64,000 bases of DNA from Roseateles sp. DAIF2 (GTDB lineage Bacteria; Pseudomonadota; Gammaproteobacteria; Burkholderiales; Burkholderiaceae_C): NCBI RefSeq assembly GCF_015624425.1, contig NZ_CP049919.1, forward strand, positions 4,402,001-4,466,000, written 5' to 3'. Each line of letters starts with the position of its first letter. Within the stretch, counting starts at the first letter, position 1. The translations under genes were made by a program, and so were the position numbers. Shown piece by piece: positions 3,182 through 27,457 of the stretch. Under the pieces are notes generated by a model. The model made no database searches. It saw nothing but the letters and a program-made list of their open reading frames with translations, and had not been told where the DNA came from.

Positions 3182-5116
3182 CTAGCGCTGCACTGTGTAG
3201 CGCGTGTCGTAAAAACGCCCCGCACCATCCTGCGCGCGCAGCCACAGCTCCTGGCCCAGGGCGCCGGCGGCGGCGCCGATTTGCGGCAGGCTCAGGGTGC
3301 TGGCGCTCACGCCATAGGCCGGCGTGAAGTCGCGCTGCACCACGCTGGCGCCGCTGTTGCGGATCACGACCCGCACCCGCATCAGGCGCAGGTCCGGATT
3401 GGACTTGGCCCAGGCGCTCCAGTTCAGGTTCAGGCCGGCGGCGAGGCCGGCCGCGGTCAGCGGCGCGCTGCCGCTGATGCCGTCCAGCGCCGGATAGCGC
3501 GGCTGGGGCGGCACGCTGGCCGGTAGCTCGGCGCGCAGCCAGGCCACGCGGCTTTCGGCCGCGGTGGCGCCGCTCGGGGTGTAGGAGGCCAGGTACTTGG
3601 CATTGCGCAGGGTGTCGGCACCGCCCAGCCAGCCGACGGTGGCGGGCTGCAGCAGCTGGTCGGACAGCGCACCGGTCGGCTCGACCGAGCTGGCGCCCGA
3701 GGTCGGGCTGATGCACAGCCAGCGCTGCGCGCAATAGGCCAGCGGGATGCTGAAGCCGCCGGGCGTCTGCACCGTGGCCTTGTCCAGCAGCGCGGTGCCG
3801 GCGCCGTTCTGCGCCTGCAGCAGCAGCTGCACGCCGGCGCCCGGGTTGCCGGCCGGCAGGCCGCTGCTGAGCGCGCCGCTGCTCTCCAGCGCCAGCCAGG
3901 CGACGGGGTGCACACTGAACTCCAGCTTCTTGCCATTGCCGATGAAGCTCCACTTGGGCGTGCCGGTGGTGGCGCTCTTGTTGAAGCTCAGCGCATCGGT
4001 GAACAGGTCGACCAGCGCGCCGCTGCTGTCGCTGATCGGCGCGGACACCAGCACGCGACTGCAATTGCCGGCCGTCACCACCTCGTCGGCGCAGCCGGTC
4101 ACCAGGAAGCGGCCAAACTGCCAGTTCTTGGTCGCGTAGCCGGCCAGCAGCGCGGCCAGCTCGCTGCCGCTGCGGCCGTTGTGCTTGTCGTAGGCCGAGA
4201 GATGCGGCGAGGCCGCCAGCGCCGCCGCGTTCGCGCCCTGCGCGATCAGCTTGTTCAGCGCCGCGCCCAGCTCGTCGAGCTGGCCCAGATTGGGCAGCAC
4301 GCCGGTGGCGCTGGTGGTGGCCTTCAGGGTCGAGCTGATCGCGTTGGCCGGGGTCGCGCCAGTGGTCTTGGCCAGTTCGGTCTTGGCGGTGGGCAGGTCG
4401 ACCAGCACCTCGCCGGCCTGGCTGGCCAGCAGCTTGTTGGCCAGTTGCAGCTGCTCGACGCCCTGCGCGTTCTTCGCCAGGCCGACGCGCAGGCTTTCCA
4501 GCAGCACGTCGTGGCTGCCCTTGTTGGCCGCGAACGTGGGGTCGGCCAGCAGGTCCAGCTTGGTCGGGTCGCTGATCTTCAGGTCGGTCAGCTGGGTCTT
4601 GATCAGGGTCTTCAGGAAATCGGCGGCCACCACCGTCTGGCTCAGGCTGGCCAGCGCCGTGGCGCTCTCGCTGCCCTTGGCGAACAGCGGCGCCGGATCG
4701 GCGCCCAGCGCCAGCGCCACCGCGGCCTGCGTCAGCGGCGTCACATGGGCCACCATCGCGGCCGCGGCCGTGCCCTGCACGCTGGAATGCAGCAGCTGCG
4801 GGGCGCCAGCGGCGTCCATGCCACGCGCCTGCACCAAGAGCGGCATCGTGAAGCTCTTGCTGCTCAGCTTCAGGCTGTAGCTGCCCTCGACCGGATGGGC
4901 GCTCGTGCTGCCCAGGGCCTGGCCCTTGGCATCGATCACGCTGATCGCGGCACCACCCAACGGCGCACCGACCGCGGCCACGCCGCTGAGCGTGGACTCG
5001 ACCTCGATGGGCGTCGTGCCGCCGTCGTTCTTGTCGCCGCCCCCACCGCCGCCGCAGGCGGCCAGGACGAGGGCGGACGACAGGACGGGAAACAGCAGCG
5101 CGGGGCGGAACGACAT
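3182..5116 (-). CDS. Putative secreted lipoprotein, unknown function
   Basis: A 644-residue protein read from the ATG at 5116 (MSFRPALLFP). Longer in-frame starts lack a signal peptide, whereas this one begins with a hydrophobic leader and a lipobox (SALVLAAC followed by a Gly run), so the mature protein should be lipid-anchored. After a short Gly/Asp/Thr linker there is a probable beta-sandwich region (STLSGVAAVGAPLGGAAISV, a carboxypeptidase-regulatory-like start), then a helical middle and a C-terminal region rich in beta strands with Cys pairs. I do not recognise the rest. It is monocistronic; the next leftward gene upstream is an ABC binding protein 112 bases away. Confidence 0.7.
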   Translation of the reverse strand: MSFRPALLFPVLSSALVLAACGGGGGGDKNDGGTTPIEVESTLSGVAAVGAPLGGAAISVIDAKGQALGSTSAHPVEGSYSLKLSSKSFTMPLLVQARGMDAAGAPQLLHSSVQGTAAAAMVAHVTPLTQAAVALALGADPAPLFAKGSESATALASLSQTVVAADFLKTLIKTQLTDLKISDPTKLDLLADPTFAANKGSHDVLLESLRVGLAKNAQGVEQLQLANKLLASQAGEVLVDLPTAKTELAKTTGATPANAISSTLKATTSATGVLPNLGQLDELGAALNKLIAQGANAAALAASPHLSAYDKHNGRSGSELAALLAGYATKNWQFGRFLVTGCADEVVTAGNCSRVLVSAPISDSSGALVDLFTDALSFNKSATTGTPKWSFIGNGKKLEFSVHPVAWLALESSGALSSGLPAGNPGAGVQLLLQAQNGAGTALLDKATVQTPGGFSIPLAYCAQRWLCISPTSGASSVEPTGALSDQLLQPATVGWLGGADTLRNAKYLASYTPSGATAAESRVAWLRAELPASVPPQPRYPALDGISGSAPLTAAGLAAGLNLNWSAWAKSNPDLRLMRVRVVIRNSGASVVQRDFTPAYGVSASTLSLPQIGAAAGALGQELWLRAQDGAGRFYDTRYTVQR

Positions 5117-5228
5117 GGGCGTAGGTACGGGACGATGAATGCCGCCCAGTATGGCCAGCCGCGCCGCGCCGAAAGCGCGCATCAGGGCCGGAAAGCCGGC
5201 CCTACTCCGCCCGCGCCGGCTTGCGCGC

Positions 5229-9080: not shown

Positions 9081-9923
9081 ATGAAGTTTCAAGGCTCCGA
9101 GCAGTACGTCGCCACCGCCGATCTGATGCTGGCGGTCAATGCCGCCATCACCTTGAAGCGCCCCCTGCTGGTCAAGGGCGAACCCGGCACCGGCAAGACC
9201 ATGCTGGCCGAGGAAGTCGCGCAATCGCTGGGTCTGACGCTGCTGCAGTGGCATGTGAAGAGCACCACCAAGGCCCAGCAGGGCCTGTACGAATACGACG
9301 CGGTGAGCCGGCTGCGCGACTCACAGCTCGGCGAGGAAAAGGTCAGGGACATCCACAACTACATCGTCAAGGGCGTGCTGTGGCAGGCCTTCGAGGCGGA
9401 CACCCCGGTGGCTTTGCTGATTGACGAGATCGACAAGGCGGACATCGAATTCCCGAACGACCTGTTGCGCGAGCTCGACCGCATGGAGTTCTACTGCTAC
9501 GAGACGCGCCAGCTGATCAAGGCCAAGCACCGCCCGCTGGTCTTCATCACCTCCAACAACGAGAAGGAACTGCCGGACGCCTTCCTGCGCCGCTGCTTCT
9601 TCCACTTCATCAAGTTCCCCGACGCGGCCACGATGCAGCAGATCGTCGACGTGCATTTCCCGGGCCTGAAGAAGGAGCTGCTGGCCGCCGCGCTGAAGAC
9701 CTTCTTCGACGTGCGCAACCTGCCCGGGCTGAAGAAGAAGCCCTCGACCAGCGAGCTGCTGGACTGGCTGAAGCTGCTGCTGGCCGAGGACATCCCGGTC
9801 GAGGCCCTGCACAGCGGCGACGACAAGGTGGCGGTCCCGCCGCTGGTCGGCGCCCTGCTGAAGAACGAACAAGACCTGACCCTGTTCGAGAAGCTGGTGT
9901 TCATGCAAAGCCGCAACCGATGA
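9081..9923 (+). CDS. MoxR-family AAA+ ATPase
   Basis: A 280-residue AAA+ ATPase from the ATG at 9081; upstream in-frame codons contain the promoter, so they are not coding. Walker A is GEPGTGKT (33-40), Walker B LLIDEID (112-118), sensor 1 lies in VFITSNNEKELPDAFLRRCF with the arginine finger. MoxR ATPases pair with VWA-domain proteins as chaperones that insert cofactors or activate complexes. The VWA partner here is at 12.9 kb, after three intervening genes. The TGA overlaps the next gene (ATGA), so the block is translated as an operon. Confidence 0.9.
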   Translation: MKFQGSEQYVATADLMLAVNAAITLKRPLLVKGEPGTGKTMLAEEVAQSLGLTLLQWHVKSTTKAQQGLYEYDAVSRLRDSQLGEEKVRDIHNYIVKGVLWQAFEADTPVALLIDEIDKADIEFPNDLLRELDRMEFYCYETRQLIKAKHRPLVFITSNNEKELPDAFLRRCFFHFIKFPDAATMQQIVDVHFPGLKKELLAAALKTFFDVRNLPGLKKKPSTSELLDWLKLLLAEDIPVEALHSGDDKVAVPPLVGALLKNEQDLTLFEKLVFMQSRNR

Positions 9924-10129
9924 GCGGCGGCCCCACCTACAGGCAGGGACTGGCCGATGCGCTCGGCTTCGTGCTGGGCGCGCTGGCCGGCTGGCAGCTC
10001 GGGAGCTGGCTCGGCTTCGACTTCATCGGCTCGACGCAGTGGCAGACGCCGCAGCTGATCGGGCTGCTCTTCATCCTCGCCGGCTGCGGCCTCGGTCGCT
10101 GGCTGGCGCGCAAGATCATCCTGCGATGA
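9920..10129 (+). CDS. Small two-helix membrane protein
   Basis: A 69-residue hypothetical protein whose ATG overlaps the moxR stop and whose stop overlaps the next GNAT start. Two hydrophobic helices are visible (about LADALGFVLGALAGWQLG, and LIGLLFILAGCGLGRWLA), the second ending in basic residues. Residue choice and overlap on both sides argue that it is real. Its role is unknown; position suggests it works with the MoxR block. Confidence 0.7.
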   Translation: MSGGPTYRQGLADALGFVLGALAGWQLGSWLGFDFIGSTQWQTPQLIGLLFILAGCGLGRWLARKIILR

Positions 10130-20956: not shown

Positions 20957-21031
20957 CTCTCCGTAGTTCAATGGATAGAACGGCCGCCTCCTAAGCGGCA
21001 GATACAGGTTCGATTCCTGTCGGAGGGACCA
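20957..21031 (+). tRNA. tRNA-Arg (anticodon CCU)
   Basis: A full cloverleaf is visible: acceptor CTCTCCG/CGGAGGG (one T-G wobble), D stem GTTC/GAAC, anticodon stem GCCGC/GCGGC with anticodon CCT at 20990-20992, T stem ACAGG/CCTGT with loop TTCGATT, discriminator A and an encoded CCA. It reads rare AGG codons. Its T-loop and 3' end act as the left attachment site of the integrative element that follows. Confidence 0.95.
21009..21024 (+). other. attL core within the tRNA T-loop
   Basis: TTCGATTCCTGTCGGA in the T-loop and T-stem of tRNA-Arg matches 15 of 16 bases of the sequence at 25922-25937. P4-type integrases commonly recombine in this part of tRNA genes, so this is the likely attachment core. 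Confidence 0.7.
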
Positions 21032-21063
21032 AGACGGCATTTCAGGACGCCGCACAAACGATC

Positions 21064-21100
21064 AAGCCCCTAGGTGAATCAAGCACTTAGGGGCTTTTTT
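21064..21100 (+). terminator. Intrinsic terminator after tRNA-Arg
   Basis: AAGCCCCTAGGTG and CACTTAGGGGCTT form a 13-base-pair stem with one mismatch and a seven-base loop, followed by a T-run reaching 21100. It lies 32 bases beyond the encoded CCA and should end the tRNA transcript. A related sequence sits beside the right attachment site. Confidence 0.85.
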
Positions 21101-21145
21101 CATGTCAGGTTCGCGCACAACGGCGCTTTACAGCGCGGCACAGGC

Positions 21146-21204
21146 GGGGGAACATGCGGGGGAACAAAGCGCAGTTCCCCCACTTTCACGGAGCCTGTTC
21201 CCCC
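21146..21204. repeat. Left arm-type boxes GGGGGAAC (four copies)
   Basis: GGGGGAAC occurs at 21146-21153 and 21158-21165 (12 bases apart, same strand), and in reverse orientation (GTTCCCCC) at 21174-21181 and 21197-21204. The last copy abuts the integrase ATG at 21205. Two more copies with the same 12-base step lie at the right end of the element. The pattern is that of integrase arm sites, and it could also let the integrase repress its own gene. Confidence 0.7.
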
Positions 21205-22446
21205 ATGCTGACCGATACCGCTTGCAAGAACGCTGTCTGCCCGGCAGGCAAGACCCGGCACCGGCTGACCGACTCAGGGGGGCTCTATCTGGAGGTGGCG
21301 CCTAACGGCTCAAAGCGCTGGTTTGCCAAGTACCGCTTTGCGGGCAAGGAAAAGCGCATTGCGCTGGGCAGCTACCCAGAAGTGGCATTGAAAGCCGCTC
21401 GCGCTGGCCGCGACGCCGCCCGCAAGACCCGCGAAACAGGCGCCGACCCCGTACAGGCTCGCAAGGCCGAAGTGATCGCCAAGCGGGTGTCATCGGCGGT
21501 GACCTTCAAGGCCGTGGCGGAGGAGTACCACCAGCAAAAGGCCAGCGACTGGAGCCCGGTTCACGCGGCGCAGTTCCTGCGCTGCTGCGAGAAAGACCTG
21601 TTCCCCTGGATCGGCACCCTGCCCTTACGCGACATCACGGCGCCGGTGCTTCTGGACAGCTTGCGCCGGGTGGAAGCACGCGGAGCCCTGCAACTGGTGC
21701 GCGACCTGCGCGAGTTTGCGGGCCAGGTGTTCATGTACGGCATACGCACCGGGAAATGCGAGGGCAACCCGGCACGCGACCTGATCGGCGCCTTCAAGGC
21801 ACACACCGTCAAGCACATGGCCGCCGTGTTGACACCGGCCAAAGCGGGCGAGCTGATGCGGGCCATGAGCAGCTACCAAGGTCAGCCCACCACGCGGGCG
21901 GCGCTGCTGCTGTCTGCGCTCCTGTTCCAGCGGCCGGGAAACATCCGCTCGCTGGAATGGGCCTGGATCGACTTGGATCGGGCCTTGCTCACCATCCCCG
22001 CCGAGGCCATGAAACGCGCCAAGGCTGGCAAGCTCAACGGGCGCCCGCATCTGGTCCCGCTGTCCACGCAGGCCGTTGCCACCCTGAGCGATCTGCAGCC
22101 GCTGACCGGGCACGGCCGCTATGTATTCCAGAGCCTGCGCACCGGCGACAAGCCCATGAGCGAGAACACCGTGAACGCGGCCCTGCGCGGCATGGGCTAC
22201 AGCAAGGACGAGATGACCGCCCACGGCTTCCGCGCCATGGCTCGCACCATCATGGTGGAGAACATCCCCGGCATCGACCCCGAGGTGATCGAGGCCCAGC
22301 TGGCGCACGGTAAAACTGGCCCGCTGGGTGGCGCCTACGACCGGGCCGAGTACATGGAGAGGCGCAAATCGCTGATGCAGACCTGGGCGGACTACCTGGA
22401 CCAACTGCGGGCGGGCGCACAGATCATCTCAATCAAGGCGGCATAA
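21205..22446 (+). CDS. int: P4-type tyrosine integrase
   Basis: A 413-residue integrase from the ATG at 21205 (MLTDTACKNAVCPAGKTRHR), the usual P4-family opening; an in-frame ATG at 21154 would translate the arm boxes. The N-terminal DUF4102 arm-binding region (GGLYLEVAPNGSKRWFAKYR, LGSYPEVALKAAR) is followed by a core-binding domain and the catalytic domain with Arg in RPGNIRSLEW, HGFRAMARTIM (H-x-x-R), LAHG and the Tyr in GAYDRAEYMERR. All catalytic positions appear intact, so the enzyme should be active. It drives recombination between attL and attR. Confidence 0.92.
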   Translation: MLTDTACKNAVCPAGKTRHRLTDSGGLYLEVAPNGSKRWFAKYRFAGKEKRIALGSYPEVALKAARAGRDAARKTRETGADPVQARKAEVIAKRVSSAVTFKAVAEEYHQQKASDWSPVHAAQFLRCCEKDLFPWIGTLPLRDITAPVLLDSLRRVEARGALQLVRDLREFAGQVFMYGIRTGKCEGNPARDLIGAFKAHTVKHMAAVLTPAKAGELMRAMSSYQGQPTTRAALLLSALLFQRPGNIRSLEWAWIDLDRALLTIPAEAMKRAKAGKLNGRPHLVPLSTQAVATLSDLQPLTGHGRYVFQSLRTGDKPMSENTVNAALRGMGYSKDEMTAHGFRAMARTIMVENIPGIDPEVIEAQLAHGKTGPLGGAYDRAEYMERRKSLMQTWADYLDQLRAGAQIISIKAA

Positions 22447-22551
22447 GCAGCTGCTGCAGAATCCAGTTTCGCCGCGCCTAGGCTGATCCCCGAAAACCTG
22501 TTTCCCTGACGGGCTGGCGCGGCACTTTCATCAGGGGCGCAGGGGGCGCTC

Positions 22552-23193
22552 GTGGACATTGTGAAGATGGCTCTGGATCAGTTCGACCAATTGATCGAGA
22601 CGGCTGAAGATTTCGGCATCAAGAAGGACACATTCCTCAAGCTAGGACAGTCTGCGATGCACGCCACGTACTTCGAGCGAAACCCAACGGATGAAAGTCG
22701 TGCATACGTTGATCGAGCGAAGCAGCAGTTCAACGAGTTGTGTGATGCAGCGCCGGGAGTTCCTCGTGAGGCGGTTGAGTTTCTCAGCGCCGCGTTCGGC
22801 CTTCATATCGCCACGTTTCTTCATTCTGAAGATAAGCAAGAGGACGAGGAGCACTGCGATTGCGAGTGGCTTGTTGAAACGCTAATGGACGTGAGCAGCT
22901 TCATGGGCGTGGCGAGGGGACTTGCGAAGAAGGCCGACGGCCTACTGGAACGCTTTCAGTCCGAGCAGCGGCAATTGCTCTCACAAGCGGGCGCCAAGGG
23001 AGCTGCCGCAAAGCACCGCCGACATGCCGAAATGAAGAAGTGGGTGCTAGAAAAGGCGGCGACATTGCGGGGCGATGACATGAACTTGGCCCGCAAGCTG
23101 TCGGCATCGCTTCCCCCCGAAATGGCGGATGTCTCGGCAAACCCGCAGCGGTTTATCTATGACGTGTTGCGGTCTCGCCAGCGCGGCGGCTAG
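22552..23193 (+). CDS. Element cargo protein, unknown function
   Basis: A 213-residue protein starting with GTG at 22552 (an ATG five codons later is the alternative). I do not recognise the family. It is soluble and mostly helical, with an acidic Cys/His patch in the middle (EDKQEDEEHCDCEW) and a basic C-terminal part (AGAKGAAAKHRRHAEMKKW ... NPQRFIYDVLRSRQ) that resembles tails seen in plasmid and island proteins. By eye its GC content is clearly below that of neighbours. It sits between the integrase and the AlpA-like gene, the usual slot for variable cargo in such islands. Confidence 0.65.
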   Translation: MDIVKMALDQFDQLIETAEDFGIKKDTFLKLGQSAMHATYFERNPTDESRAYVDRAKQQFNELCDAAPGVPREAVEFLSAAFGLHIATFLHSEDKQEDEEHCDCEWLVETLMDVSSFMGVARGLAKKADGLLERFQSEQRQLLSQAGAKGAAAKHRRHAEMKKWVLEKAATLRGDDMNLARKLSASLPPEMADVSANPQRFIYDVLRSRQRGG

Positions 23194-23214
23194 CCAGCCA
23201 TGCGTAACGGCTGG
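23194..23214 (+). terminator. Hairpin after the cargo gene
   Basis: CCAGCC (23194-23199) and GGCTGG (23209-23214) form a six-base-pair stem directly after the stop codon of the cargo gene. No T-run follows, so terminator activity is uncertain. Confidence 0.35.
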
Positions 23215-23299
23215 CAGCCCTGGCGTCACGTCTAGCCAGGCATCTGGAACATCGCCAGGTCGACCTAGATGACATTTCGGGCCATCGATCACTCACTTG

Positions 23300-23569
23300 A
23301 TGGCTCAGATGCAACCACACCAGATCCCTGCTGCTCAGGACAAAACCCGCGTCGCCAAAGGCAATCAACCACTTGATGCGATCCAGTTGTCAGACGCGTT
23401 GCTACGCGTTCGAACTGTCTCTCACGCCACCGGTCTTTCGGTTGCCAGCCTGTATCGCAAGCTAGCCGCCAAGGAGTTCCCGGCGCCAGTAAGACTTGGC
23501 AAGCGGTGTACCCGCTGGAAAGCCGCCGATGTGCGAGCCTGGATTCAGGCTCAAGGGGGCGAGCAATGA
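23300..23569 (+). CDS. AlpA-like HTH regulator
   Basis: An 89-residue protein from the ATG at 23300. The C-terminal 55 residues form a MerR/AlpA-like winged helix (RVRTVSHATGLSVASLYRKLAAKEFPAPVRLG followed by TRWKAADVRAWI), as in AlpA of P4-like elements, which activates or steers excision of cryptic islands. The stop overlaps the next gene start (ATGA at 23566). In this context it is the likely excision or expression switch of the element. Confidence 0.85.
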   Translation: MAQMQPHQIPAAQDKTRVAKGNQPLDAIQLSDALLRVRTVSHATGLSVASLYRKLAAKEFPAPVRLGKRCTRWKAADVRAWIQAQGGEQ

Positions 23570-23867
23570 ACGCCCCATTGCACACCACCCCGCCCGAGCG
23601 CATCGCGGCCCTGCAGGCCATCCGCGACCGGCATCGCGGCGATTCGGCCAGCACGCAAGCTGCGCGGCTGCTGGAGGCCCTGCAGGCCCTCGGCCACATC
23701 ACCACCTTTGAGGCTTCGCGCTTTCTGGACCTGTACGACCCCAGGGCACGCAAGCTAAATCTGGTTCAGCAAGGCCACCGGGTGCTGACCACCTGGCGCA
23801 CGGTGCAGACCGAGTGCGGCGAGCGGCATCGCGTGGGGTCTATTCTCTGCAGCGGGGGCAGGCATGA
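23566..23867 (+). pseudogene. Small HTH protein gene with apparent one-base frameshift
   Basis: The gene starts at the ATG overlapping the AlpA-like stop and encodes a basic island-type HTH protein (QAARLLEALQALGHITTFEASRFL, VLTTWRTVQTECGERHRVG). Read straight through it ends at 23919 with a low-quality tail. If one G is added to the run at 23835-23838, the frame continues HRVGVYSLQRGQA and stops at 23867, where the TGA overlaps the ATG of the next gene at 23864. The restored ending fits neighbouring gene spacing better, so a lost G, a read error or ribosomal slippage is likely. Confidence 0.65.
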
Positions 23868-24595
23868 GGCCCGGCAAGACAGAAGCCCCGACCGTTGGCG
23901 CGGTGCAGGGCTTCGGTGAACCTCAATCTTCTGTCAACAGCCTGGATTGTGCCGGGGCTGACTCGGCGCTGCCACTCTCGACCGTCAAAGATGAAGCGCG
24001 CATGGATTCGCGTCTGCTGGCCGATGCGCTGGGGCTGCAGCATCGCAGCGTGTTCAAGCTGATCAGCGACAACCGGGCTGACTTTGCCGAGCTGGGCAAG
24101 GTGCGATTTGAAATCGCGGCTTCGCCAGGCAGTGCCACCGGGCAGGCGAGCAAGTTCGCCTTGCTCAATGAGGATCAGTGCTATCTGCTGCTGACCTACA
24201 GCCGCAACACCGAGCGGGTGCGCAAGCTCAAGCTGCGGCTGGTGCAGGCCTTCCGGGAGGCACGCAGCGCGGCCGAGATGCGGCGCAGCGAGTACCTGCC
24301 GGGCTATCACCGCCTGCATGAGGACATTCAAGCGCTCGCGGGAGACTCACCAAATGCCCGGTTCGTGCACCTGAACGTCAATCGGCTGGTGAATCGCACG
24401 GCAGGCCTGGACGCTGGAGAGCGGCACCGAGCCGCAGCGCCCCAGCTCGCAGCGGTGATCCTGGCGCAGAACCTGGCGACGCGAGCCATGCGCGGGGCGG
24501 GTGACCATCACGAGGCCTTTGCACGGGCCAAGGTGGCGCTGCATTCGCTGCAGGACTTGCTGGCGCTGGCGGGGCCTGAACACCATGGGGCGTGA
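23864..24595 (+). CDS. Rha-family phage regulatory protein
   Basis: A 243-residue protein. Residues about 38-125 match the pRha domain: MDSRLLADALGLQHRSVFKLI, a central loop, then FALLNEDQCYLLLTYSRNTERV and KLKLRLVQAFREAR. Rha proteins are phage or satellite regulators that interfere with growth in some hosts. The C-terminal 110 residues are helical and of unknown role. The ATG is in the overlap with the restored frame of the preceding gene, and its 3' end overlaps the following gene by 11 bases. Confidence 0.85.
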   Translation: MRPGKTEAPTVGAVQGFGEPQSSVNSLDCAGADSALPLSTVKDEARMDSRLLADALGLQHRSVFKLISDNRADFAELGKVRFEIAASPGSATGQASKFALLNEDQCYLLLTYSRNTERVRKLKLRLVQAFREARSAAEMRRSEYLPGYHRLHEDIQALAGDSPNARFVHLNVNRLVNRTAGLDAGERHRAAAPQLAAVILAQNLATRAMRGAGDHHEAFARAKVALHSLQDLLALAGPEHHGA

Positions 24596-25559
24596 CCCTT
24601 CAGGCAAGCGCAAGGGCGATCTGGGGCGGGTGGCAGGTGGCTTTGTGGCCCTGCCCTGGCAGGTGCTGGACTGTCCTGCCTATCTGGCGCTGCGCCATGC
24701 CGACAAGGCTTTGCTGATCGAGATTGCGCGCCAGTTCGTCCGGGACAACAACGGCCGTTTGCTGGCCAGCCGGGCGCACCTGGCCGGGCGAGGCTGGAAG
24801 TCTGCAGGCCTGATCAGCCAGTGCATCAAGAACCTGCTTTCAGCCGGCCTGATCCATCAAACGGTGCGCGGGCACAGGCCCAACAAGGCGAGCTGGTTTG
24901 CAGTGACCTGGCGCCTGCTGGACCCGCACCCAGGCTATGACCCCGGCGCAGCCGCCACCTTTGAGCGCGGCAGCTATTTGCGAGCCACGCCCGCGCCGAC
25001 GCCGAGACGCAAGCCACCGAAAAGAAGCCCCAGCCAAAACGCGGGCCTTAGTCCGATGACCGGAAAAGCGGAGCCGCCCATTGCTCCGATGGTCGGAACA
25101 GAGGCGCGCCCTGCTGGTCCGATGGTCGGAGCTGTCACACCTTGTTCAATGGCCCGACCTGTTCCGTACACCGGACACCATCTAGAACTGCCATCTGCTG
25201 GGACTGCAAACAAGCCCAAGGCAAAGACCGCAACACACCAGCCAGAAGCAAGGGCAGGCTCACGCCCTGCAAGCCATCTTCATGAACCTGGCAAGGCGTG
25301 CAACAAGCCAGGACTACCTCAAGCATTGGGAGGCCTACCTACGCATGGCCCTCAAGGCGCAAAACCAATGCCGCATGACCTTGGAGACGCTGGCGAACAT
25401 CAAGAACCCGCCCGTGGTCTACGCCAAGCAAGCCAACATCAACAACGGCGGACAGCAGCAGGTGAACAACGGCAGGAGCGCGGCAAGCGATGTGCCCACG
25501 GCCTCACACGCGACGAATCCGGTTCCAGTGAAAACCGAACTATTGGAGGCGAACCATGA
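24585..25559 (+). CDS. Winged-helix type island protein with out-of-frame C-terminal extension
   Basis: The start ATG overlaps the rha gene. Residues 1-125 resemble an island protein family with an HTH-like core (GGFVALPWQVLDCPAYLALR, GRGWKSAGLISQCIKNLLSAG, RPNKASWFAVTWRLL). Residues about 155-200 carry four P-M/Y-T/V-G repeats encoded by palindromic DNA. From about residue 205 the frame runs through DNA that in another phase encodes an island-type protein, so the last 115 residues look like an accident of a deletion that removed the original stop. The native protein probably ended near 25210. Function unknown. Confidence 0.6.
   Translation: MGRDPSGKRKGDLGRVAGGFVALPWQVLDCPAYLALRHADKALLIEIARQFVRDNNGRLLASRAHLAGRGWKSAGLISQCIKNLLSAGLIHQTVRGHRPNKASWFAVTWRLLDPHPGYDPGAAATFERGSYLRATPAPTPRRKPPKRSPSQNAGLSPMTGKAEPPIAPMVGTEARPAGPMVGAVTPCSMARPVPYTGHHLELPSAGTANKPKAKTATHQPEARAGSRPASHLHEPGKACNKPGLPQALGGLPTHGPQGAKPMPHDLGDAGEHQEPARGLRQASQHQQRRTAAGEQRQERGKRCAHGLTRDESGSSENRTIGGEP
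25052..25175. repeat. Four iteron-like palindromes TCCGATGGTCGGA
   Basis: TCCGATGACCGGA (25052), TCCGATGGTCGGA (25085 and 25118) and TCCGTACACCGGA (25163) are near-perfect palindromes spaced 33, 33 and 45 bases. They are within a coding frame and yield repeated PMVG-like peptides. The regular spacing of about three helical turns resembles iterons or clustered operators. Confidence 0.55.
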
Positions 25560-25653
25560 CCAAGGGCTGGACACCCGAGCGCAGAGCCAAGCAGGCGGCA
25601 CTGATTCGCACCTGGCAACCGTGGACACACTCCACCGGCCCGCGCAGCCTTGA
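25282..25653 (+). pseudogene. Truncated island protein gene (MNLARRATSQ family)
   Basis: The frame encodes MNLARRATSQDYLKHWEAY and ALKAQNQCRMTLETLANIKNPP, a pattern I associate with longer phage or island proteins in which this is an internal segment. The frame is open from 25186 with no good start or ribosome site, and the first possible ATG (25282) falls mid-domain. The 5' part appears lost in the same deletion that fused the upstream gene. A shortened product of about 123 residues could still be made. Confidence 0.5.
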
Positions 25654-25792
25654 GGGCAAAGCACGCGCCGCCCGGAACGGCGACAAGGGCGGGCAATGGA
25701 AAGCCGAGCGTGAGGCCCTGCGCGAGTTCAGGCAGCAGGTGAGCGGCCTGCTGAAACAGCAGAAAGAACTCTTGCGCCGCATGGCGAGCTGA
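25556..25792 (+). CDS. Small basic island protein (STGPRS motif)
   Basis: A 78-residue basic protein with a strong ribosome site (GGAGG six bases before the ATG). It begins MTKGWTPERRAKQAALIRTW and contains the motif HSTGPRSLEGKARAARN, seen in many small proteins of unknown function near mobile elements, followed by a helical tail (REFRQQVSGLLKQQKELL). It overlaps the preceding frames. This is the last gene of the element, about 55 bases before the right arm boxes. Confidence 0.7.
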   Translation: MTKGWTPERRAKQAALIRTWQPWTHSTGPRSLEGKARAARNGDKGGQWKAEREALREFRQQVSGLLKQQKELLRRMAS

Positions 25793-25847
25793 ACAGCAGC
25801 GGCCCGTGTCGCTTGATCCCCACAAATTAGGGCAGCGTGTCAGGTGC

Positions 25848-25867
25848 GGGGGAACAAATGGGGGAAC
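25848..25867. repeat. Right arm-type boxes GGGGGAAC (two copies)
   Basis: GGGGGAAC at 25848-25855 and 25860-25867 are 12 bases apart, the same spacing as the direct pair at the left end. They lie 55 bases inside attR and probably bind the integrase N-terminal domain. Confidence 0.7.
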
Positions 25868-25903
25868 GGCATCAGGGATACGCCGAAACGGCCCTTACGA
25901 ATC

Positions 25904-25923
25904 AATCAGTTAGGCTGATTTTT
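25904..25923 (+). terminator. Terminator-like hairpin beside attR
   Basis: AATCAG-TTAGG-CTGATT followed by a T-run forms a short intrinsic-type terminator that ends at the attR core. Positions 25899-25924 match the tRNA terminator arm at 21076-21101 in about 20 of 26 bases. It would end rightward transcription of the element before aidB. Confidence 0.6.
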
Positions 25924-27457
25924 CGATACCTGTCGGACCAGCGACCGATCGATGGATCAAGCCGGAAACGCCCGCTGCAGCAAGGCTTCGATCGATCCGG
26001 CCGGACTGGAGCCGCAGGGCCTCGCCCAGCGCACGCAGCTCATTGCGCAGCACGGCCTCGTCGCCGGCCAGCGCGGCCAGCTCATCGAGCAACGCGAAGG
26101 CGGCCTCGGGTTCGCGCGCGATCGCGCGCAGCATGTCCAGGCACATCACATTGCCCGAGCCCTCCCAGATCGAGTTGACCGGGGTCTCGCGGTACAGGCG
26201 CGCCATGATGCCATCGTCGACATAGCCGTTGCCGCCCAGGATCTCCATGGTCTCGCCGCTGGCCTCGACCGCGCGCTTGCAGACCCAGAACTTGGCGGCC
26301 GGCGTCAGGATGCGCTTCCAGGCCCGATCCAGCGGGCCGCCCTGCCCCTGCTGGTCGTTCTCGTAGGCCAGCGCCAGCCGCATCAGCAGGGCCAGCGCCG
26401 CCTCGCTCTCCAGCGCCAGATCGGCCAGCACCGCGCGCATCAGCGGCTGCTCGGCCAGGACGCGGCCGAAGGCGCGGCGCCGGCGCGTGTAGGCCAGCGC
26501 CTGCACCAGGCCCTGGCGCAGCATCGCGGCGCTGCCGATCACGCAGTTCAGCCGGGTGTAGGTGGCCATCTCGATGATGGTCGGGATGCCGCGCCCCTCC
26601 TCGCCCATCAGGAGGCCCTGCGCGTCCTCGAACTCGACCTCGCTGCTGGCATTGCTGCGGTTGCCGACCTTGTCCTTCAGGCGCTGGATGCGCACCGCAT
26701 TGCGGCTGCCGTCGTCGCGCCAGCGCGGCACGAAGAAGCAGGACGGGCCGCCCTCGGCGGTGCGCGCCACCACCAGATGGGCATCGCACATCGGTGCCGA
26801 GAAGAACCATTTGTGGCCGCGCAGCAGGTACTCGGCGCCGCGCCCGCCGGCGCCGACCGGCGTCGCGATGGTGGTGTTGGCGCGCACATCGGAGCCGCCC
26901 TGCTTCTCGGTCATGCCCATGCCCAGCCAGATCGCGCCCTTCTGCGCCAGCGGCAGGTCCTGCGGATCATGGGCGTCGCTGTAGAGCTTCGACTGCAGCC
27001 GCTCCCACAGCGCCGATTCCTTTTGCAGCAGCGGGATCGCGGCCTGGGTCATCGTGGCCGGACACAGGCTGCCGGCCTCGACCTGGCCATGCAGATAAAA
27101 GCCCGCGGCCCAGGCGCTCCAGCGGCCCGGCCGCGTGTCGCGAAACGGCAGCGCGACCAGGCCTTCGGCGCGGTACAGCGCCAGCAGCCGATGCCAGGCC
27201 GGATCGAACTCTACCCGGTCGACGCGATGGCCGCGGCGGTCGAAGCGCTGCAGCTCGGGGTGGTGGCGGTTCGCCCGCTCGGCCAGTGCATAGGTCTCGG
27301 CGCGGCCGAGGCGCTCGCCATAGGCCGACAGCTGCGGCGCGAAGGCCTCGGCGCCGGCGCGCTGCAACGCCTCGCGCAGGGCCGGGTCGCTGTCGAACAG
27401 GTTGTAGCCGCTCAGCTCGTCGAACTGGTTGTCTACCTCATGGGTCTGCCAGGTCAT
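25910..27457 (-). CDS. aidB: AidB-type acyl-CoA dehydrogenase, C-terminus altered at the element junction
   Basis: A 515-residue flavoprotein of the acyl-CoA dehydrogenase family most like AidB, an alkylation-response protein that binds DNA. Typical segments are GMGMTEKQGGSDVRANTT, YLLRGHKWFFSAPMCDA, FFVPRW, EMATYTRLNCVIGSAAMLRQ and MEILGGNGYVDDG ... YRETPVNSIWEGSGNVM. The family is usually about 540 residues. Here the last 30 residues (from about QSGRIDRSLAAAG) do not look like the normal ending, and the final codons and TAA come from attR and the element. The enzyme core is intact, but the C-terminal helix set is probably shortened. Confidence 0.85.
   Translation of the reverse strand: MTWQTHEVDNQFDELSGYNLFDSDPALREALQRAGAEAFAPQLSAYGERLGRAETYALAERANRHHPELQRFDRRGHRVDRVEFDPAWHRLLALYRAEGLVALPFRDTRPGRWSAWAAGFYLHGQVEAGSLCPATMTQAAIPLLQKESALWERLQSKLYSDAHDPQDLPLAQKGAIWLGMGMTEKQGGSDVRANTTIATPVGAGGRGAEYLLRGHKWFFSAPMCDAHLVVARTAEGGPSCFFVPRWRDDGSRNAVRIQRLKDKVGNRSNASSEVEFEDAQGLLMGEEGRGIPTIIEMATYTRLNCVIGSAAMLRQGLVQALAYTRRRRAFGRVLAEQPLMRAVLADLALESEAALALLMRLALAYENDQQGQGGPLDRAWKRILTPAAKFWVCKRAVEASGETMEILGGNGYVDDGIMARLYRETPVNSIWEGSGNVMCLDMLRAIAREPEAAFALLDELAALAGDEAVLRNELRALGEALRLQSGRIDRSLAAAGVSGLIHRSVAGPTGIEKSA
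25922..25937 (+). other. attR core
   Basis: TTCGATACCTGTCGGA matches the tRNA T-loop copy at 21009-21024 in 15 of 16 bases. It lies inside the last codons of the leftward aidB frame. Confidence 0.7.

Follow-up and report, generated by a model that had tools for sequence, protein, structure and literature searches.

A probable minimal satellite-type integrative element, apparently damaged, in the tRNA-Arg(CCU) gene of Roseateles sp. DAIF2

A window of 64,000 nucleotides from the genome of Roseateles sp. DAIF2 (contig NZ_CP049919.1, positions 4,402,001 to 4,466,000; all coordinates below are those of the window) carries a 4.9-kb integrative element which, as judged from the sequence, is bounded on the left by tRNA-Arg(CCU) and on the right by a decayed copy of the 3' end of that tRNA. 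The target gene (20957..21031, + strand), predicted by ARAGORN, contains the core of the left attachment site, attL (TTCGATTCCTGTCGGA, 21009-21024, + strand). The right attachment site, attR (TTCGATACCTGTCGGA, 25922..25937, + strand), matches attL at 15 of 16 bases, with one substitution, and CCA follows at 25938 after a gap of 4 nucleotides. The tRNA reads ...GTCGGAGGGACCA and the right copy ...GTCGGACCA; attR is taken as a decayed tRNA 3' end because the match extends to the CCA once this gap is allowed. Outside the tRNA region, attR is the sole match of at least 15/16 to the attL core on the + strand of the window, and when the right flank (25793-26100) was put through 100 plain shuffles, no stretch agreed with a 16-mer of the tRNA at 15 or more bases. 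Repeats of the CGGGGGAAC and GGGGGAAC types lie just inside both ends as candidate arm-type integrase sites: at the integrase end (21145..21204), CGGGGGAAC at 21145-21153 and 21157-21165 and, immediately before the integrase gene, inverted GTTCCCCC at 21174-21181 and 21197-21204; at the right end (25847..25867), CGGGGGAAC at 25847-25855 and GGGGGAAC at 25860-25867. The initial annotation, made from the letters of the window, had placed both ends by the T-loop repeat of the tRNA-Arg, and the alignment, the shuffles and the terminal repeats bear this out. The 6.0-Mb host genome holds one copy of the element, whose G+C content is 63.3%, against 70% for the window.

All genes of the element are on the + strand. 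The first encodes a tyrosine integrase (21205..22446; PF13356, PF22022 and PF00589) of 413 amino acids, counted from an ATG chosen by resemblance to the start in the related locus L002, and has no in-frame stop. It is followed by a 208-amino-acid cargo gene (22567..23193) in the variable slot between the integrase gene (int) and alpA, for which no significant Pfam or PADLOC match and only three homologues were found; all Pfam matches of a 213-amino-acid open reading frame (ORF) were below threshold. Next come alpA (23300..23569), of a regulator/excisionase family (PF05930; PHROG 2790/66); an HTH_39 gene (23566..23919; PF14090, 7.7e-18) overlapping alpA by 4 nucleotides; and rha (23864..24595; PF09669), an antirepressor-type regulator with 46% identity over 97 residues to Rha of the Pseudomonas satellite phiAH14b. 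The right part holds a winged-helix gene (24585..25559); p123 (25282..25653), a shortened copy of a family of about 200 amino acids that precedes p78; and p78 itself (25556..25792), which encodes a small basic protein and belongs to a widespread family. From alpA to p78, consecutive genes overlap by 4, 56, 11, 278 and 98 nucleotides. At E <= 1, Pfam matched none of the three right-hand ORFs (winged-helix, p123 and p78), and among the eight ORFs it found neither a primase nor a relaxase.

The winged-helix gene belongs, on the evidence of its relatives, with the replication initiators. At a cut-off of E <= 0.1, the PHROG replication-initiation families 270, 428 and 678 were matched by 22, 17 and 13 of the 36 members of its family, respectively (best E 9.8e-6); the window's own initiator sequence had no such match. 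An iteron-like array lies inside the gene (25052..25175, + strand), with four copies spaced at 33, 33 and 45 base pairs: TCCGATGACCGGA at 25052, TCCGATGGTCGGA at 25085 and 25118, and a diverged TCCGTACACCGGA at 25163. The best of 30 codon shuffles reaches the three copies counted in the window. Four relatives (L002, L157, L220 and L115) have iteron-like repeats of different sequence at the same 33/33/45 spacing, which supports intragenic iterons.

Pfam confirms the integrase, AlpA, helix-turn-helix (as HTH_39) and Rha genes named in the initial annotation. The winged-helix type gene that it listed is present, and is not a mere regulator, given the kinship and the array just described; the same kinship overturns its statement that no replication gene is recognisable. 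Likewise, its one small basic protein is found again as p78, which the shortened p123 precedes and overlaps. With a probable replication initiator and genes of the p123 and p78 families, the element no longer fits the description "almost nothing but control genes".

The initiator gene appears to be damaged at its 3' end. Two close relatives, P0124 and P0121, are 96% and 94% identical; P0124 continues for about 70 further residues of its own after ATHQPEARA, and the window sequence is native to about 25256; from about 25257, the approximate deletion junction between the initiator tail and mid-p123, the initiator frame runs into p123 coding DNA out of frame. The 278-nucleotide overlap of the two genes is thus not native. 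Relatives of p123 usually have about 200 amino acids (full-length copies occur, for example, at the Pseudomonas loci L180, L138 and L158), and the window frame is open for just 34 codons ahead of the conserved part. A deletion at the initiator-p123 junction, of an estimated 0.5 kb or so, is the simplest reading. The initiator domain, the repeats, the integrase and p78 are still open. Since the deletion fuses the initiator tail to the middle of p123, this copy is probably impaired, and with this loss and the decayed attR it may be stuck in place.

The overlap of p123 and p78, here 98 nucleotides long, is a regular feature of the pair. In 139 scanned loci, near-identical ones retained, 97 pairs were found (a p123 match starting 150-320 nucleotides before p78 on the same strand); the two genes overlap in 95 of them, and the median over the 97 is 104 nucleotides. 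One phase is common to 93 of the 95 overlaps, and the other two, of 4 and 49 nucleotides, are in another phase. A conserved box, AACTATTGGAG (25538..25548, + strand), contains the presumed ribosome-binding site of p78. Within the 40 nucleotides upstream of p78, AACTATTGGAG occurs in 42 and AACTNTTGGAG in 54 of 120 de-duplicated loci, and the box is present in plasmid pW9NP1 too. In the p123 frame the box encodes Leu-Leu-Glu. This tripeptide occurs after residue 100 in 62 of 97 p123 rows, and its first Leu codon is CTA in 51, CTT in 11 and never CTG; among the 1,686 other Leu codons of p123, CTA is used 118 times and CTG 768 times (rows not de-duplicated). The skewed codon use indicates that the box is conserved as nucleotides and not just as protein. 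It is plausible that part of the box is a ribosome-binding site, and a role as DNA is also conceivable.

Members of the p78 family occur in 32 of 300 genomes from the order, a count that includes the host of the window, in 14 of 398 genomes from the phylum (5 strong and 9 weak or partial matches), at 24 IMG/VR loci and on 5 of 72,556 plasmids; p123 was found on two plasmids. A named genome collection holds at least 337 p78 loci; the 80 analysed belong, by their titles, mostly to Alpha-, Beta- and Gammaproteobacteria; two records are from Chlorobi and one is from Chthoniobacterales. Where at least 8.5 kb of upstream sequence is available (21 loci in the order sample, 51 in named genomes and 15 in IMG/VR), a same-strand integrase lies within 8.5 kb upstream of p78 in 16/21 and 38/51 of the first two sets, alpA lies upstream in 14/21, 25/51 and 10/15, and p123 directly upstream in 14/21, 46/51 and 12/15, respectively. 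Integrase and p78 are 3.4-8.4 kb apart, the exceptions being two named loci at 0.2 and 0.6 kb. As a control, a downstream integrase was found at 1 of the 59 genome loci with 8.5 kb on that side; loci with a shorter downstream flank were excluded from this control, and five of these (L095, L098, L114, L127 and L210) have a downstream integrase match. Of 69 elements taken for a flanking-repeat test, 10 were dropped for short flanks, and 19 of the remaining 59 are flanked by exact repeats of at least 16 nucleotides, longer than in any of 20 shuffles. Fifteen of these 19 repeats overlap a tRNA predicted by ARAGORN, and that of L133 is of the GGGGGAAC type. In the examples examined, the interval between alpA and p123 holds DUF3987 proteins, Toprim/AAA_25 proteins or a winged-helix initiator. 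The window element fits this class: a same-strand int 4.4 kb upstream and the overlapping pair at the right end, with p123 shortened. No description of the p123/p78 pair was found in full-text searching of the literature. At L191, p78 lies at 10001 and an opposite-strand p78/p123 pair about 4 kb downstream, which suggests two adjacent elements.

The int-alpA slot is highly variable, with 61 ORFs from 45 elements falling into 52 clusters, and looks like a cargo slot. Related slot proteins occur in gammaproteobacterial relatives (L144:5765-6592, L140:5734-6588 and L180:4628-5521), and Pfam assigns the L144 protein to DUF6387.

The integration site varies within the genus, as judged by two other genomes, G001 and G002. 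G001 has a tRNA-Arg identical over all 75 bases, without an insert, and so represents the empty site; there the tRNA stands closely between a TamB-like gene, which precedes it, and a gene of PEP-CTERM type (gene names are our own reading of the ORFs). In G002 the same tRNA-Arg is occupied by a different insert, about 4.9 kb long. The Variovorax locus L157 also has its element at a tRNA Arg CCT, with the right copy GTCGAAGCACCA against GTCGAAGGCACCA. In G002 (L249:4620-9621), the original tRNA-Arg is apparently split near the anticodon loop, the 5' part lying at about 4620-4657 and the 3' part at about 9585-9621. A replacement tRNA-Arg comes with the insert, in halves at about 4846-4881 and 5100-5136 with about 220 nucleotides between them, just after CCT. 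This interruption is possibly a self-splicing intron; it received no Rfam name at the gathering threshold. In the window, attR is flanked by a 3'-truncated acyl-CoA dehydrogenase-type gene (25910-27457, - strand), whose product, of 515 residues, loses its homology to a 549-amino-acid relative after residue 477. The final codons of the gene fall within attR and the element, with the stop codon inside the element, and the right flank has therefore itself been rearranged.

Two relatives share the backbone of the element. Phage satellite phiAH14b (KU708005) has the same order of int, cargo, AlpA, small gene and Rha, and its P4-type integrase is 42% identical. According to its description (Dziewit & Radlinska 2016, PMC4936722), it has neither structural nor terminase genes, capsids of phiAH14a package its genome, most probably in the form of trimers, and its att repeat is T-loop-like and 18 base pairs long. 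It differs in its size of 16.8 kb and in having a Toprim primase and a helicase where the window has the winged-helix gene, and hidden Markov model (HMM) searches of it found neither a winged-helix initiator nor HTH_39; by eye, its small gene resembles the ORF at the HTH_39 position of L144. The second relative, L002, is an IMG/VR contig resembling a capsid-forming phage-inducible chromosomal island (cf-PICI). It shares int, cargo, alpA, rha and the initiator in the same order and the same iteron spacing, with identities of 57% (int), 43% (rha) and 48% (initiator); the cargo-slot genes are of similar size and their kinship is not clear (E 0.013). L002 continues into a major head protein, a protease, a portal and a small terminase, whereas the window element lacks these and ends in p123/p78.

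Fifteen initiator loci were compared (14 from IMG/VR, and L252), with 69 same-strand ORFs of at least 90 amino acids downstream of the initiator. Counted over the best 25 of 123 families, these include major-head (up to 7), large-terminase (5), HNH (5), portal (4), small-terminase (4) and tape-measure (4) families. Not every one of these loci is a capsid element, since replication-type genes or an integrase follow at L270 and L275, and prophages may be among them. Neither p123 nor p78 is present at any of the 15 loci as fetched; the contig behind L270 (= L204) carries the pair further along.

We propose, with moderate confidence, that the element is a minimal satellite-type integrative element in tRNA-Arg(CCU), a damaged member of a widespread and apparently unnamed class. 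Its anatomy, its kinship, the conserved architecture and the damage are established at the level of the sequence; that phages transfer it is what we infer. In such a mechanism, a helper phage would relieve the repression maintained through the Rha and AlpA regulators, AlpA and the integrase would excise the element, and the winged-helix protein would initiate replication at the iterons that its own gene contains. Circular or concatemeric element DNA would then exit in helper particles. The terminal p123/p78 might, as a guess, aid transfer or packaging; in L002, the capsid module occupies the place of the pair. We further put forward, tentatively, that p123/p78 is an undescribed phage-exploiting module, for packaging entry or another helper function, and the mark of a minimal-satellite class that spans Alpha-, Beta- and Gammaproteobacteria, with the 11-nucleotide box as a translational switch or a DNA recognition site. 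On the shared backbone, the pair occupies the position that a capsid/terminase module has in a relative. Of the three guesses in the initial annotation, that of a very small phage satellite has the strongest support, since the backbone matches those of phiAH14b and L002.

Several observations weigh against this proposal. No head or packaging gene was matched among the eight ORFs by Pfam and PHROGs, as the initial annotation had noted for packaging, nor was a terminase or capsid-redirecting gene recognised in the element by these searches. Pfam Phage_portal had no match in the host genome, the same search being positive in 4 of 14 control genomes; the host thus showed no resident helper of this type. 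Only 2 of 15 IMG/VR p78 loci have a same-strand integrase within 8.5 kb upstream, and HMM searches found no p123/p78 in phiAH14b, though it is packaged. When p123/p78 was compared with the terminase small subunit, hhalign gave E 0.27 and 0.51 against one six-row alignment, and structure matches were weak. The pair is, moreover, not confined to satellites: at L197 (1000-10300) it lies near ORFs of 525 and 808 amino acids that resemble virion proteins by eye, and L202 and L204 carry a relative of the 744-amino-acid ORF of L252, a locus where a further ORF looks by eye like a head protein, so that p123/p78 also lives on prophage-like contigs. Nor did p78 and p123, like the winged-helix protein, have any match in 50,697 phage records.

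This last absence also fits an integrative element moved by conjugative elements or transformation instead of phages, with p123/p78 as a plasmid-like maintenance or transfer module. The pair indeed occurs on two circular Polaromonas glacier plasmids, one of them typed as mobilizable, of 11.2 kb (L216:7883-8910, with another annotated ORF between the two genes) and 7.2 kb (L217:4047-4788, with the overlap and the AACTATTGGAG box kept), for which the incomplete annotation shows no tyrosine integrase or AlpA. We regard this explanation as unlikely, given that the element has no Pfam relaxase, shares its backbone with a packaged satellite and a capsid-encoding contig, and has its terminal pair on prophage-like contigs as well. 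Those contigs, the capsid module of the left-half relative L002, the apparent deletion at the initiator-p123 junction, the decayed attR and the truncated flank gene would also suit the dead remains of a once larger satellite or prophage that encoded capsids, lost most of its right half and kept only its early genes. Such an origin is less probable still: p123/p78 is the conserved right end of many other small elements, int, p78 and the repeats at both ends are intact, and no ORF at 135 p78 loci matched the query proteins taken from L002, L267, L269, L274 and L276 (head, portal and large-terminase candidates included). The initial annotation's decayed island, not the best supported of its guesses, is nevertheless partly right, because attR lacks 4 nucleotides and the initiator/p123 junction is deletion-like. 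Its remaining guess, a defence island of which one cargo gene is left, agrees with the variability of the int-alpA slot, as cargo slots are variable, and is otherwise unsupported and very improbable. PADLOC gave weak AlpA matches only in the element and, at E <= 0.001, none in 44 slot proteins (this element's and 43 from relatives) scanned with PADLOC and Pfam out of the 61 slot ORFs; in these 44, Pfam found DUF6387 in three, one HicB-like antitoxin and one HTH_29.

Many small islands seated in tRNA genes have no known way to move. The conserved p123/p78 pair at the right end makes a large group of them easy to search for, and the presence of different modules on one backbone leaves the function of the pair open to a direct deletion test.

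Among known systems, P4-like satellites have a P4 alpha-type primase and psu, sid and delta genes; the eight ORFs of the window element had no primase match and no match named psu, sid or delta in Pfam and PHROGs. A cf-PICI has its own capsid and packaging genes, which the window element does not. The phage-inducible chromosomal minimalist islands (PICMI) of Vibrio also have int and AlpA; as described (PMC10803314), they have a DUF3987/DUF5906 primase and a site next to fis, whereas the window element has no primase match, sits in tRNA-Arg and belongs to another host group. The tmRNA-seated Pseudomonas islands of the I55 type resemble it, as described (PMC12595487), in the terminal tyrosine integrase, AlpA, the RNA-gene target and the lack of transfer genes. 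They differ in having AlpA at the end opposite to int, many more genes (the I55 numbering reaches orf39) and YqaJ/RadC as common genes, and they are moved by a jumbo phage (PMC12595487); the text consulted makes no mention of p123/p78. Elements of similar kinds are thus already published, as the PICMI report (PMC10803314) and a review of hitchers (PMC11389934) indicate.

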